From the NCBI GenBank assembly GCA_016192915.1, contig JACPTF010000007.1:1-38622 (forward strand): DNA of 38,622 nt. Reading direction: 5' to 3'. Positions 5,065 through 33,716 of the stretch are shown here, piece after piece. Positions within the stretch are counted from its first letter, which is position 1. Each line of letters begins with the position of its first letter. The position numbers were made by a program, and so were the translations under genes. The notes under the pieces are model-generated. The model saw only the letters and a program-made list of their open reading frames with translations, was not told where the DNA came from and made no database searches. The DNA comes from Candidatus Woesearchaeota archaeon (lineage in GTDB: Archaea; Nanobdellota; Nanobdellia; Woesearchaeales; UBA10216).

Positions 5065-5185
5065 GCCCCGGTAGCTTAGACGCTGCCAACAGCGGAGCAA
5101 CAGGTAGAGCGATGGACTGTTAATCCATAGGTCGCCAGTTCGAGACGCTTTTCTTCAGAGAAGCGAGAAACTCTGGCCCGGGGCG
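5065..5185 (+). tRNA. tRNA-Asn(GTT) with D-loop and T-loop introns
   Basis: The acceptor arms are GCCCCGG (5065-5071) and CCGGGGC (5178-5184), with G73 at 5185. The anticodon stem ATGGA/TCCAT (5112-5116, 5124-5128) encloses CTGTTAA with anticodon GTT at 5119-5121 and no intron. The D-loop carries about 20 extra nt within 5080-5102, containing the hairpin CGCTG-CCAA-CAGCG. The T-arm GCCAG (5134-5138)/CTGGC (5173-5177) carries about 27 extra nt (about 5145-5171), best read as an intron at 59/60 leaving TTCGAGT, with internal helix GCTTTTC/GAGAAGC. The D-loop boundary is uncertain. It is 15 bp from tRNA-Ile and probably co-transcribed. Confidence 0.9.
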
Positions 5186-5200
5186 CTTATCATTATCATT

Positions 5201-5339
5201 GGGCCCATAGTTCAGCTTGGCTAGAACGCCGCACAACCTTTTTGCAAGCAAAAAGCTTGACCAAAAAGATGGGCGAGTCTGATATTCGGTTAGCGAATCA
5301 GCCAGGCGGAGGTCCTCGGTTCAAGTCCGAGTGGGCCCA
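5201..5339 (+). tRNA. tRNA-Ile(GAT) with two introns
   Basis: The acceptor arms are GGGCCCA (5201-5207) and TGGGCCC (5332-5338), with A73. D-stem GTTC/GAAC, T-arm CTCGG-TTCAAGT-CCGAG (5315-5331). A consistent mature tRNA appears only if two introns are removed. One is about 5233-5277 (45 nt, near position 30/31) with hairpin CTTTTTG-CAAG-CAAAAAG. The other is about 5285-5303 (19 nt, at 37/38). This leaves anticodon loop CTGATAA (GAT at 5281-5283) and stem CCGCT/GGCGG. Exact splice sites are inferred by eye. The 3' end cuts into the frame of the convergent iminopeptidase gene. Confidence 0.88.
5233..5277 (+). repeat. Family B hairpin forming the first tRNA-Ile intron
   Basis: ACAACCTTTTTG, then CAAG, then CAAAAAGCTTGACCAAAAAG. 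The stem CTTTTTG/CAAAAAG (5238-5244, 5249-5255) and the trailing GCTTGACCAAAAA match the tRNA-Glu and tRNA-Arg anticodon-loop introns and the free copy near 19052. Confidence 0.65.
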
Positions 5340-6210
5340 AAAAAAGCTTAGATTTAGGCAGCGCCTTGTGAAGCTGCCAGGCCTGGTGGGGCGGGCAAAG
5401 CATATCGTATCGGCCGTTAACAATGGTTATTGGTATCTTAAGCTTGTTTAATTTTCCTATGTTGCCTAGGATGTAATTTTTCGGCAGGAAAAAGTTGTTT
5501 TTCGAGTAGTAAGCCTCCACAGCAGCCAGGGATTTGTACGGGAAGCCTTTGAGGCTGCGCATGATATCCCTGTGCGTCATTCTAAGCTTGTAAAGAGAAA
5601 GCTCATAGTACGCGAATTCAAATGCAAACTTGTTGCTGATTCTCCCGTTTTTCGACTGCATCTGCTTCACGTAGTAGCCAATGACATCATTTCTGCACCT
5701 CTGCGGCACTTTACTGACAAAGCGTTCCCAAGCGTCAGGGAAATAAGCCTCAGCCCCGCCGCCGTAAGTGTATTTAATATCCGCTTTCCTGCCGAGAAAA
5801 ATCCCACGCAGCAGCATGCCCGTAACAGTTTCAGGATAGTTTATAGCATACACGAGGGACAGAGTTGAGCCCCAGCTGCCTCCGAAAAGGAAGACTTTGC
5901 TGATGTTGAGGAACCGCAGCAGCTGCCGCATGTCTGACACCAGCTTCCATGTCGTGTTTGCATGCAGCGATGCGAACGGCTTGCTCCTGTTTGCTCCCCT
6001 TTGGTCGAAAAGAATTATGTTCCACACCTTCGGGTTGAAGAATCGCCTGTCCTTTTCGCTGCAGCCAGCTCCCGGACCGCCGTGCACGTACAAAACAGGC
6101 TTGCCTTTCGGGTTGCCGCACAGCTCGTAATACAGCTTATGGCCGTCGCCCACGTTGAGGTAGCCGTGCCTGTAAGGCCTTATTTTCGGAAAAAGCTTTG
6201 GACCTCTCAT
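5290..6210 (-). CDS. Proline iminopeptidase (alpha/beta hydrolase), C-terminus truncated by tRNA-Ile
   Basis: A 306-residue frame. Residues 1-290 match family S33 prolyl aminopeptidases, which remove N-terminal proline: PVLYVHGGPGAG (39-50), the oxyanion region DQRGANRSKP (69-78), nucleophile elbow GGSWGS with S112, and acid D269 in NGRYDMLCPP. The family ends about 25-30 residues later with a GHS motif carrying the catalytic histidine. Here, after KALPKSKLF, the frame runs antisense through tRNA-Ile and gives GPLGLEPRTSAW before stopping. The catalytic His is therefore missing and the product is probably inactive. A TATA box (GATATTTAAGCC on the minus strand, about 6233-6244) still lies about 25 bp before the ATG, so the promoter is intact. 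Confidence 0.82.
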   Translation of the reverse strand: MRGPKLFPKIRPYRHGYLNVGDGHKLYYELCGNPKGKPVLYVHGGPGAGCSEKDRRFFNPKVWNIILFDQRGANRSKPFASLHANTTWKLVSDMRQLLRFLNISKVFLFGGSWGSTLSLVYAINYPETVTGMLLRGIFLGRKADIKYTYGGGAEAYFPDAWERFVSKVPQRCRNDVIGYYVKQMQSKNGRISNKFAFEFAYYELSLYKLRMTHRDIMRSLKGFPYKSLAAVEAYYSKNNFFLPKNYILGNIGKLNKLKIPITIVNGRYDMLCPPHQAWQLHKALPKSKLFLGPLGLEPRTSAWLIR

Positions 6211-6306: not shown

Positions 6307-8037
6307 ATGGAAGCAGTTAAAGGAGCTGTTGAGGTAGAGCAGAAGACGTCTAACCCTGTTACAAATATTGCGCTCGACACAGTGAGAATTGGAAAGCAGG
6401 CGCTTGTCTTCGTCAGCACAAGGCAGTCAGCCGAGAAAGCTGCCGAGGAAATAGGCAATCATCTGAAATTAAAAGGTGAAAAGCTTACTTCCCTGGCAGA
6501 AGAAGCCCTGCACGCCCTTTCAAGACCTACAAGGCAGTGCGAAAGGCTGGCGAGATGCATAAAGGGGGGAGCAGCTTTCCACCACAGCGGCCTGACAGCA
6601 AAGCAAAGGCAGCTGATAGAAGATAATTTCCGCAGCGGGGCCATAAAGATAATTTGCTGCACGCCCACGCTGGCAGCAGGGGTAGACTTGCCCGCCTTCC
6701 GCGCAGTAATCCGCGATTTAAAGCGCTTTTCAGAGAGAAGCGGCTACGGCTACAGCGGGTCAAACTGGATACCTGTACTTGAATACCTGCAAATGACTGG
6801 AAGAGCCGGCAGGCCAAGGTTTGACAGCGAAGGCCAGGCAGTCATCGTGGCAGGCACCGAATCAGAAGAGGAAGAACTAACCGAGCGCTACATCCGTGGC
6901 GAGCCGGAAGACATCTTCTCAAAGCTCGCGGTTGAGCCGGTGCTCCGCACTTACCTGCTTTCGCTGATTTCCACAGGCATGGTGGGGAACCGCAAGGAGG
7001 TAATGGGCTTCTTTTCCAGGACGTTCTGGTCCCACCAGTACAAGGACTTCAAGCAGCTTGAAAAAATACTTGACAAGATGCTTCTCCTGCTTGAAGAGTG
7101 GGAATTCATCAGCAGAAGCGGCAATAAGGGCACAAATCGGGATGCACCCGATTGTGCATTCGGCCAAATGCCGAATTGCACTGCTGCGCCCTCAATGTCG
7201 TCTGCTGGCGACAAGCTTCGCCTCTCCGGCGAAGTATCAACCTTCGGCAGCGGCAACGAATTCATGTCCGCATCAGAAATAAAAAATGAAGTGGTGAAGC
7301 CAACGCTGCTAGGAGCAAGGGTCGCCCAGCTGTACCTTGACCCGCTGACAGCGCACGAAATAATAGTCGGCCTCAGGAAAGCAACAGCCAAAAAAATATC
7401 AGAGCCAATGCCGTTCCAGCTGCTGCAGCTACTCTCGTCAACGCTTGAGATGAGGCCTCTGCTGAAGGTCAAAGTCAGGGAGCTTGAGGACTTCCAGGCA
7501 ATCCTTGCCGAACACGGAGGCATGCTGCTGGTGGAGGAGCCGTCAATGTTCGAGGACGGCTACGATGAGTTCCTTGCATCGGTAAAGACTGCGAAATTTT
7601 TTGACGAGTGGATTGATGAGAAGGACGAGGAATACCTGCTTGAAAAGTACGGCATAAGGCCAGGAGAGATACACGCCAAGCTTGGCAGTGCAGACTGGCT
7701 GCTTTACTCTGCAGCAGAGCTCGCAAAACTAATGCGGCTGCAGCCACTTCTGAAGTATGTTGCAAAACTCAGGTTCAGAGTGGAGCACGGCATAAAGGAA
7801 GAGCTGCTGCCGCTTACCCAGCTCAGGGGCATAGGGCGAGTCAGGGCAAGGAAGCTGTTTGACAACAGGATAAGGAACCTTGCAGACGTCAAAAAAGCAG
7901 ACACGCCCACTTTAACCCAAATTCTCGGCAGCGGAAAGCTGGCACTTGACATAAAGCAGCAGCTTGGAGAAAAGACCGAGGTTGTAAAAGAAGGGAAGAG
8001 GAAGGGGCAGATAAACCTCAAGGATTATGGCGAATGA
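6307..8037 (+). CDS. Hel308-like helicase C-terminal portion (RecA2, winged helix, ratchet, HhH), no RecA1
   Basis: A 576-residue protein matching Hel308/Hjm from motif IV onward. It shows LVFVSTRQSAEKAA (about 33-46), FHHSGLTAKQRQLIEDNFR (about 91-109), motif V TPTLAAGVDLPA, motif VI QMTGRAGRP, a ratchet region with QLYLDPLTAHEI, and the C-terminal helix-hairpin-helix LRGIGRVRARKLFDNRI. The first RecA domain with Walker A and DExH boxes is absent, and nothing upstream on this strand encodes it, so the protein cannot hydrolyse ATP alone. Residues about 275-311, in the winged-helix region, are encoded by a palindromic repeat insertion. A TATA-like AGATTAAAAACG about 27 bp before the ATG suggests a real start. 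It could be a split helicase whose other half lies elsewhere, or a decaying gene. Confidence 0.82.
   Translation: MEAVKGAVEVEQKTSNPVTNIALDTVRIGKQALVFVSTRQSAEKAAEEIGNHLKLKGEKLTSLAEEALHALSRPTRQCERLARCIKGGAAFHHSGLTAKQRQLIEDNFRSGAIKIICCTPTLAAGVDLPAFRAVIRDLKRFSERSGYGYSGSNWIPVLEYLQMTGRAGRPRFDSEGQAVIVAGTESEEEELTERYIRGEPEDIFSKLAVEPVLRTYLLSLISTGMVGNRKEVMGFFSRTFWSHQYKDFKQLEKILDKMLLLLEEWEFISRSGNKGTNRDAPDCAFGQMPNCTAAPSMSSAGDKLRLSGEVSTFGSGNEFMSASEIKNEVVKPTLLGARVAQLYLDPLTAHEIIVGLRKATAKKISEPMPFQLLQLLSSTLEMRPLLKVKVRELEDFQAILAEHGGMLLVEEPSMFEDGYDEFLASVKTAKFFDEWIDEKDEEYLLEKYGIRPGEIHAKLGSADWLLYSAAELAKLMRLQPLLKYVAKLRFRVEHGIKEELLPLTQLRGIGRVRARKLFDNRIRNLADVKKADTPTLTQILGSGKLALDIKQQLGEKTEVVKEGKRKGQINLKDYGE
7130..7237. 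repeat. Family A element plus two further hairpins, inserted in frame in the Hel308-like gene
   Basis: Double hairpin: GCACAAATCGGG pairs with CCCGATTGTGC (7130-7157), then GTGCATTCGGC pairs with GCCGAATTGCAC (7154-7181). Two more stem-loops follow: TGTCG/CGACA (7196-7213) and CTTCGCC/GGCGAAG (7217-7235). The first unit is nearly the same sequence as the copy at 33547. The reading frame is kept. Confidence 0.75.
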
Positions 8038-9617: not shown

Positions 9618-9671
9618 TTTTTGTTAAAAAGGTTGAGCGAGCCCGCCGGGACTTCCTCACTGGCGTTCGGA

Positions 9672-9721
9672 GCACAAATCGCTGATGCGATTGTGCCCAG
9701 TCGGTTTTGCACCGACTTGGG
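9672..9721. repeat. Family A element inside the tRNA-Arg T-loop intron
   Basis: GCACAAATCGC-TGAT-GCGATTGTGC (9672-9696) followed by CCCAGTCGGT...ACCGACTTGGG (9696-9721). It occupies most of the 91-nt intron. Confidence 0.78.
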
Positions 9722-9796
9722 CATTAGCGCCGGGCGCCAATATTTGAACCCAGATCAATCGGTTACAGCCCTTTTCCCCGCTGCTGCGGGCAAAAG

Positions 9797-9894
9797 CCCA
9801 AGACGCTTTACGGCGTCTGGGCCCAGTCGAGCGCAATTCCGCGAGGAGCGGAATGCGCAATCGGGCGTCCCCCGATTTGCGCTCTCGACTTGGG
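9797..9894. repeat. Family A element, nested copy, inside the tRNA-Arg anticodon intron
   Basis: The outer hairpins are CCCAAGACGC/GCGTCTGGG (9797-9821) and CCCAGTCGAG (9822-9831) with CTCGACTTGGG (9884-9894). The second loop holds an inner double hairpin: GCGCAATTCCGC/GCGGAATGCGC and GCGCAATCGGG/CCCGATTTGCGC (9831-9882). Confidence 0.8.
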
Positions 9895-9921
9895 CGCTGG
9901 CGGAAAAACGCTACTGTTACG

Positions 9922-9972
9922 TATCGTTTTTTGGTCCAGCTTTTTGCCGGCCGCTGCCGGGAAAAAGATGGT
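9922..9972 (-). repeat. Family B-like sequence at the 5' end of the tRNA-Arg anticodon intron
   Basis: On the minus strand the intron starts ACCATCTTTTTC, continues through a GC-rich hairpin, then CAAAAAGCTGGACCAAAAAA. It matches the tRNA-Glu and tRNA-Ile introns in order and wording. Confidence 0.6.
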
Positions 9973-10057
9973 CCGAAGCCGATCGCACTGTCCGGATTGT
10001 GCTACAGGCCCGTGCCTGACTAACCCTGACCACTATTTAAAGTTATGGCGAATCACA

Positions 10058-28016: not shown

Positions 28017-28796
28017 ATGGAAATTGACTTAACAAGTATAGAAATGAGCCGCAAGGATGTAAAAAAGCGTTTGCAATTGCCCGTGCAATTAACTGAAAGT
28101 CTTGCGGAAGACATAGGCATCATGGTTGGAGACGGGCATGTCGCAGCTCATACGCATAAGGGATGCACTAATTACGAAATATGCGTGTCTGGCGATGCAA
28201 TTACTGATTACAACTATCTGACTGACTATGTGAGCAAACTCAAGAAAAATCTCTATAACCTTGAATTTTCTAAGTTCTTTGCAGGCAAAAGAAGATCTGA
28301 GTTTCGATTACAAACATATTCGAAAGGTCTCGTAGGTTTCTATTCACGAATTGGCTTGCCTTTAGGCAAAAAGATAAACATTCGAGTTCCTGAAATAATA
28401 AAACAAAGTAATGAAAAAATAAAAAGAGCATTTTTGCGTGGCTTTGGAGATACTGATGGAGGCTTAATTCTTAGGAAAAAATACAAAGCTTTCGCATATT
28501 ACCCTTCCATAAAATTAGCATCGTCAAGCAAGCCGTTAATTGAAGATATTTGTGAAATTTTGATTGAAATTGGCTTTTCTTATACTGTGTCGTTTGACTT
28601 ACGAAATATACATTCAAAAACAGGCAAAATATCTATTTTACATGAAATTTCATTGAATGGAATGGAAAAAGTAGAAAAATGGATGGCAGAAATAGGAACT
28701 AGTAACTTGGCAACATTTCAAAAATTTGAATCGGCAAGAAGTATGAAGCGGGCCCACAGGGATTTGAATTCCAGCGATATCAGCCAACCTATTTAG
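28017..28796 (+). CDS. LAGLIDADG homing-endonuclease-like protein
   Basis: A 259-residue protein with two LAGLIDADG helices: LAEDIGIMVGDGHV (29-42, acidic D39) and FLRGFGDTDGGLIL (139-152, acidic D145/D147). Such enzymes cut long DNA sites to spread introns or inteins, and related proteins act as RNA maturases or WhiA-like regulators. It is free-standing, with an unusually strong GGAGGT at 28004-28009, 7 nt before the ATG. The last 16 residues (KRAHRDLNSSDI...) are read antisense through tRNA-Lys and its T-loop intron, where the frame stops. The native C-terminus may therefore be cut or replaced. It is visibly AT-richer than its neighbours, suggesting recent transfer. Confidence 0.82.
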   Translation: MEIDLTSIEMSRKDVKKRLQLPVQLTESLAEDIGIMVGDGHVAAHTHKGCTNYEICVSGDAITDYNYLTDYVSKLKKNLYNLEFSKFFAGKRRSEFRLQTYSKGLVGFYSRIGLPLGKKINIRVPEIIKQSNEKIKRAFLRGFGDTDGGLILRKKYKAFAYYPSIKLASSSKPLIEDICEILIEIGFSYTVSFDLRNIHSKTGKISILHEISLNGMEKVEKWMAEIGTSNLATFQKFESARSMKRAHRDLNSSDISQPI

Positions 28797-33607: not shown

Positions 33608-33716
33608 GCCGGGATAGCATAACCTGGTATTGCGCAAGCCTGGAAACTGCAAGTTTTCTGCAGGCGTGATAGCTTGTTCCCGCAAGGGTTTCGGGGTTCA
33701 AATCCCCGTCCCGGCG
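33608..33716 (+). tRNA. tRNA-Ser(GGA) with a 37/38 intron
   Basis: Class II tRNA. Acceptor GCCGGGA (33608-33614)/TCCCGGC (33709-33715), G73 at 33716. Anticodon stem CAAGC (33635-33639)/GCTTG (33672-33676), loop CTGGAA and A with anticodon GGA at 33642-33644. A 25-nt intron (33646-33670) with internal helix CTGCA/TGCAG sits at the canonical position. Variable arm CCC-GCAA-GGG, T-arm CGGGG-TTCAAAT-CCCCG. Confidence 0.93.

Follow-up and report, generated by a model that had tools for sequence, protein, structure and literature searches.

How can a tRNA gene that is five times as long as its 74-nt product be a working gene, and what has filled it? The question is raised by a locus in a window of 38,622 nucleotides (contig JACPTF010000007.1 of assembly GCA_016192915.1, Candidatus Woesearchaeota archaeon), which we regard as very probably the only detectable tRNA-Arg(UCG) gene of its genome, functional and spliced at bulge-helix-bulge (BHB) junctions, with introns that were lengthened by hairpin elements; the splicing is inferred, without RNA data. 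The gene occupies 10011-9638 on the minus strand and comprises 374 nt in total (39 + 209 + 21 + 91 + 14 nt, the second and fourth segments being the introns):

10034 to 10041, minus strand: TATA-box-like TTTAAATA, about 22 nt upstream of tRNA-Arg(UCG)
9973 to 10011, minus strand: exon 1, tRNA positions 1-37: 5' side of the acceptor stem, D arm, 5' side of the anticodon stem and the anticodon TCG
9764 to 9972, minus strand: intron 1, 209 nt, at the canonical position 37/38
9743 to 9763, minus strand: exon 2, tRNA positions 38-59: 3' side of the anticodon stem, variable loop, 5' side of the T stem and TTCAAA
9652 to 9742, minus strand: intron 2, 91 nt, at position 59/60
9638 to 9651, minus strand: exon 3, tRNA positions 60-73: 3' side of the T stem, 3' side of the acceptor stem and the discriminator G

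Removal of both introns restores a regular tRNA, as observed from the ARAGORN assignment of the spliced 74-mer to tRNA-Arg(tcg) and from the cloverleaf, in which 21 of 21 pairs of the acceptor, D, anticodon and T stems form. This is in agreement with the first-pass annotation, which had assigned the gene to tRNA-Arg with anticodon TCG and had placed introns of 209 nt at 37/38 and 91 nt at 59/60; the strand, which it did not state, is minus. Its expectation that standard tRNA finders would miss the gene is borne out for the two that were tried, i.e., the unspliced gene was reported neither by ARAGORN with default settings nor by Rfam searches at the gathering or E-value threshold. The self-pairing intron ends and the palindrome content that it described are both present, and the introns fold far better than shuffled sequences, with −107.2 kcal/mol for intron 1 (shuffles −71.3 ± 4.6 kcal/mol, z −7.9) and −44.4 kcal/mol for intron 2 (shuffles −25.9 ± 3.1 kcal/mol, z −6.0). 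For the whole pre-tRNA, the fold constrained to the cloverleaf reaches −182.2 kcal/mol versus −183.9 kcal/mol for the free optimum, and since the constraint costs just 1.7 kcal/mol, the inserts leave tRNA folding possible in prediction.

The orthology of the gene is observed directly. The downstream ProRS of the window shares 82%, 79% and 67% identity with those of Candidatus Woesearchaeota groundwater MAGs, in which the same tRNA is found in conserved synteny (loci L067 and L068), with an intron 1 of 54 and 60 nt, respectively, and without intron 2. The exon 1 pattern is matched perfectly once per genome in seven congeners (G009-G015; the window genome is G000), and another genus of the family (G008) has an intronless copy of the tRNA with two mismatches in exon 1. 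Intron 1 measures 43-94 nt in the seven congeners as compared with 209 nt in the window gene, and intron 2 is absent from all six congeners with a readable 3' exon, the seventh (G011) being unresolved. Orthologues with unchanged exon 1 and with shorter or absent introns exclude a chance assembly of a pseudo-cloverleaf, and the simplest account of the unchanged exons is selection on an essential single-copy gene. A second Arg-UCG gene was not found in the 92.9% complete genome by the Rfam cut-off, a loose E-value, a D-arm pattern or the exon pattern, and the intact further copy that the first reading had named as speaking against it is thus not in evidence. The tRNA inventory of the window genome was compiled from searches and the short loci that they returned, without tiling of the genome, and is not exhaustive.

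A weak BHB at intron 1, a unique extra intron and several nested insertions would also be expected of a decaying tRNA pseudogene that has been overrun by repeats. We consider this very unlikely, however: exon 1 is the same as in congeners whose ProRS is just 67-82% identical, all cloverleaf pairs are intact, and the TATA-like box is conserved at the identical place in all congeners read (TTTATATA in G015 and TTTAAATA otherwise). Furthermore, the gene is the sole Arg-UCG found, and CGA codons are in use (21 times in 15 ORFs of the window). A functional tRNA-Arg(UCG) gene remains the most likely reading.

What fills the introns can be traced to two repeat families, whose identity and restriction to the genus are observed. 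The first, here termed the C element, is a hairpin common to many tRNA introns of the window genome, with a CTTTT/AAAAG stem that often contains a C-C mismatch; behind the hairpin comes an A-rich tail that ends in ACG. Alignment of 18 stretches gives a 10-bp helix in which eight of the ten pairs covary, with changes on both sides (score 0.418 versus 0.193 in shuffles). A covariance model (R1) built from 18 sequences, the window's 9925-9971 among them, detects 75 copies in the window genome and 8-93 per genome among the seven congeners; 11 genomes from other genera of the family yield none. Many of the copies lie outside tRNA introns, either intergenic or directly downstream of tRNAs. The second family, the A palindrome, is a hairpin of about 25-27 nt with four outer pairs, of which the last are CA/TG, a single bulged A, six to seven inner pairs and a loop of 3-5, and is mostly present as a doublet of two inverted copies that have the central bases in common. 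Its strict form, CAAGTCG-N(6-14)-CGACTG, occurs 55 times in the window genome, 4-58 times in congeners and 0-1 times in other genera, and the reversed control gives no match in the window genome. The bases between the fixed parts vary yet nearly always pair in the copies inspected. The palindromes of the first-pass annotation are thereby confirmed and, beyond what it had proposed, belong to two dispersed repeat families confined to the genus. Their members within the gene are:

9925 to 9971, minus strand: forward C element in intron 1, hairpin CCATCTTTTT..AAAAAGCTGG plus tail ACCAAAAAACG; R1 score 55.3 bits
9895 to 9910, plus strand: tail half (CGCTGGCGGAAAAACG) of the inverted C element in intron 1, an A insert separating it from the hairpin half
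9797 to 9894, no strand assigned: A-palindrome insert in the inverted C element of intron 1, 98 nt
9766 to 9796, plus strand: hairpin half of the inverted C element in intron 1 (59/60-intron type); partial R1 match at 9768-9799, 23.6 bits
9672 to 9721, no strand assigned: A-palindrome doublet in intron 2, 50 nt

The C elements of intron 1 form an inverted doublet, the inverted member of which is split by the 98-nt insert. When the insert is left out, 36-40 of 47-50 columns of this member are identical to the C elements in the 59/60 introns of five other tRNAs, far above the identity obtained with shuffles. The insert is itself an A doublet, and the loop of its second hairpin contains a further A doublet (about 9831-9882). 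A similar forward-plus-inverted arrangement of C elements, without the insert, was read by eye in intron 1 of G014 (L155).

Empty and filled sites are observed in protein genes as well. A Hel308-like helicase gene of the window has an additional in-frame segment that contains an A doublet (window 7130-7181) and for which relatives have an empty site, and a membrane-protein gene downstream of the tRNA in G011 (L151) carries an in-frame 48-nt A doublet near the gene start, at a site that is empty in L068 and L069. These two genes provide the clearest sign, at the level of sequence comparison, that A doublets may insert as units. The A and C copies are mutually diverged, so that recent transposition is not directly seen.

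With respect to the order of events, tRNA-Asp and tRNA-Lys are informative, as their 59/60 intron is present in all congeners examined. In G009, G011 and G015, this intron measures 23-39 nt and lacks a C element, and in G000, G012 and G014 (75-93 C elements per genome) it carries one; in the tRNA-Lys of G012, the element is an inverted C doublet. These comparisons make it more likely that, at the Asp and Lys sites, short introns already existed and C elements entered or replaced them than that the elements created the introns. In intron 1 of Arg-UCG, a C element is present throughout the genus, for which reason creation and later entry cannot be told apart there.

The converse order, in which C elements inserted in the manner of introners into intact tRNA genes and thereby made introns, with the inverted-repeat arms providing the splice-site helix, would account for the presence of C elements at several intron positions in tRNAs for different isoacceptors as well as dispersed in the genome. 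It would also suit the 37/38 intron of Arg-UCG, which has a C element in all congeners, whereas the copy in the other genus is intronless. However, the Asp and Lys introns are short and of non-C type in genomes with fewer C elements, which weakens the case for C elements as intron generators, and intron 2 of Arg-UCG, missing in the readable congeners, contains no C element. Such an origin therefore appears unlikely to us, and entry into pre-existing introns is the reading that we retain.

A search for a donor of intron 2 gave a lone candidate in G015, where tRNA-Asp is followed by the relict 3' end of a tRNA (L193, 1600-1660) that shares TCCGAACGNNAGTGAGG with the 3' end of the Arg-UCG intron; this is suggestive only. 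G011 likewise has a relict tRNA 3' end on the downstream side of tRNA-Asp (L189).

The window genome is a MAG and a fragmented draft of 20 contigs with repeats dispersed in it, and local misassembly is possible, whereby repeat-containing reads would have been collapsed or chimerically joined within the tRNA gene. That such an artefact explains the locus is nonetheless highly improbable, considering that the same architecture is present in other tRNAs of the genome (e.g., Val-UAC with 49 + 206, Arg-UCU with 107 + 62 and Glu-CUC with 107 nt), that other MAGs are alike (the C doublet in tRNA-Lys of G012), and that the junction ends still finish in exon-complementary sequence. The first-pass reading of the gene is supported, with the qualification that the gene is not a lone oddity but the extreme of a genus-wide set of intron-rich tRNAs.

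Additional tRNA genes were noted in the window and elsewhere in the genome. Positions 5067-5186 (plus strand) contain a probable tRNA-Asn(GUU), read by eye, in which about 22 nt interrupt the D loop and about 25 nt the T loop; Rfam returns only a sub-threshold fragment of it. It is followed at 5201-5340 (plus strand) by a probable tRNA-Ile(GAU) whose anticodon stem is interrupted at about 30/31 by a C-element intron, with another, short intron at 37/38, while 33608-33716 (plus strand) is a tRNA-Ser(GGA) with a 25-nt intron that ARAGORN, with introns allowed, calls tRNA-Ala. The tRNA-Val(UAC) gene mentioned above (L027 1286-1613, contig C15) has introns consisting of C and A elements that are almost as extreme as those of the Arg gene. 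Beside an intronless tRNA-Leu(CAA) (L013), the genome has a second, candidate gene for this tRNA, with 121 nt inserted in the T loop (L021 1501-1708, contig C10); no translocatable intron is known for class II tRNAs (PMC4390854), and a class II tRNA-Leu(CAA) with such an intron would bear on that statement. Contig C4 (L002) carries an intronless tRNA-Tyr beside an intronless tRNA-Ile, and the genome's other tRNA-Tyr has two introns; the contig is possibly contaminating. Finally, window positions 28017-28796 (plus strand) give weak NCBIfam matches to intein-containing proteins and possibly encode a free-standing LAGLIDADG-type endonuclease.

How the introns might be removed can be assessed from their junctions. 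The canonical motif at 37/38 has the sixth- to third-last bases of the intron paired with positions 32-35; the partners at 59/60 are positions 54-57. Over 21 distinct 37/38 introns of the genus, the observed pairing in the central helix averages 3.43 of 4, versus 1.74 at random places in the same introns, and the corresponding values for 12 introns at 59/60 are 3.67 and 1.70 (p < 5e-5 in both cases, none of 20,000 simulations having reached the observed values). This genus-wide pairing supports BHB splicing as the mechanism of the genus. When this register is applied by eye to the window gene, the junction of intron 1 forms two of the four central pairs (C32-G and C35-G), the other two being pyrimidine mismatches, and that of intron 2 forms three of four. 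Pairing at intron 1 is weaker than in the congeners; junction 1 is relaxed, and its BHB is degenerate in the window copy.

A cognate splicing endonuclease gene is present in the window genome (C1:143270-143866), with the N- and C-terminal domains PF01974 and PF02778 in a single gene of 199-204 aa, and its best solved relative is the alpha (catalytic) subunit from Nanoarchaeum equitans (3iey_A, E 1.6e-36). A beta (second) subunit was sought, and none was detected in the searches. The N. equitans type of enzyme occurs in archaea rich in non-canonical introns (PMC4090602).

The great length for an archaeal tRNA intron could alternatively point to self-splicing (group I) or homing-endonuclease introns, and group I introns have been reported in archaea (PMC6125680). 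We attach virtually no weight to this explanation, in view of the absence of any group I or other Rfam intron family at the gathering or E-value threshold, the hairpin repeats that largely account for the introns and the genus-wide junction pairing, which is of the BHB type. The RNA families that appear at the E-value threshold, miRNAs among them, score far below their gathering values and represent chance matches to hairpins.

Splicing at BHB junctions thus remains the preferred route, although transcription, splicing and the mechanism of transposition are all inferred. The gene's own TATA promoter would give rise to a pre-tRNA of about 374 nt, in which the archaeal tRNA-splicing endonuclease would read the relaxed BHB junctions at 37/38 and 59/60 and excise 209 + 91 nt, after which an RtcB-type ligase would join the exons; the pathway of endonuclease and RtcB-type ligase belongs to general archaeal biology. 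Two families of non-autonomous hairpin elements would have entered the introns and conferred their length, with C elements forming the inverted doublet of intron 1, and A palindromes nested in the inverted C element, in another A palindrome and in intron 2. Each insert is predicted to fold on itself and to spare the exon-proximal junction helices largely, and with these helices left mostly intact, tRNA introns may act as tolerated landing sites.

The Arg-UCG introns share with the archaeal BHB introns of Thermoproteales and Thaumarchaeota (PMC8450103, PMC4033280) the positions 37/38 and 59/60, junctions of the endonuclease type, the occurrence of more than one intron per tRNA and their being missed by simple finders. 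They differ in that the host is a woesearchaeote (DPANN), and in that they consist mostly of dispersed genomic repeats. In addition, 209 and 91 nt contrast with the usual 'less than 100 nt' (PMC4033280), which concurs with the first-pass statement that archaeal tRNA introns are usually shorter. Transposition of tRNA introns has been inferred in Thermoproteales, with unknown mechanism (PMC4090602); compared with that system, as cited in PMC4090602 and PMC4033280, the shared sequence is here a repeat that is also present outside tRNA genes, and this, together with the short repeat-free introns in congeners, indicates insertion into introns and not movement of whole introns.

With bacterial REP/REPIN sequences (PMC3116915, PMC3733652), the A and C elements have in common that they are short imperfect hairpins with a bulge or mismatch, form inverted doublets, number dozens of copies and are non-autonomous; unlike them, they reside in an archaeal host, in tRNA introns and in frame in proteins. 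A Y1/RAYT transposase (PF01797, Y1_Tnp) is absent from the 92.9% complete window genome at E ≤ 0.1, for which reason a bacterial-type REPIN system with RAYT was rejected, and no transposase for the hairpin elements was identified in this genome. Neither a GTAG nor a CGTC tag was seen at the ends of the A hairpins upon inspection of copies, without a formal test. Rickettsia palindromic elements are palindromic repeats that are tolerated in frame within protein-coding genes. The A doublets are alike in their in-frame insertion in protein genes, but differ in sequence, in size (48 nt for the doublet in L151), in being archaeal, and in being frequent in tRNA introns and intergenic DNA.

Archaeal tRNAs with BHB introns are known as such, and what is new is how large these introns are, the lineage in which they occur and their being filled by two nested hairpin families specific to the genus. 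Closer precedents were not found in the literature searched, at the level of titles and abstracts and with subscription papers left aside, and their absence is unproven.

Just 20 tRNAs pass the Rfam cut-off in the 92.9% complete window genome, and a custom search gave more than 12 intron-bearing tRNA candidates, several of them below that cut-off or missed; the tRNA complements of DPANN may hence be under-called. To splice a pre-tRNA of 374 nt at relaxed junctions would put the specificity of the endonuclease to a hard test. The origin and growth of archaeal tRNA introns is an unsettled question, for which eight congeners display graded stages, from a short intron to one hairpin element, an inverted doublet and a doublet with nested palindromes. 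We lean towards the view that essential tRNA genes have turned, in this one genus, into a favoured harbour of the two hairpin families, which enter existing BHB introns, nest to as many as three levels and persist by way of the endonuclease; they are proposed to persist because an enzyme that reads structure removes any self-folding sequence between the junctions. If this is true, intron size would track element copy number, and the genus, with its mobilising enzyme still unidentified, would offer an archaeal parallel to REPINs and to the transposon-driven growth of introns in eukaryotes.
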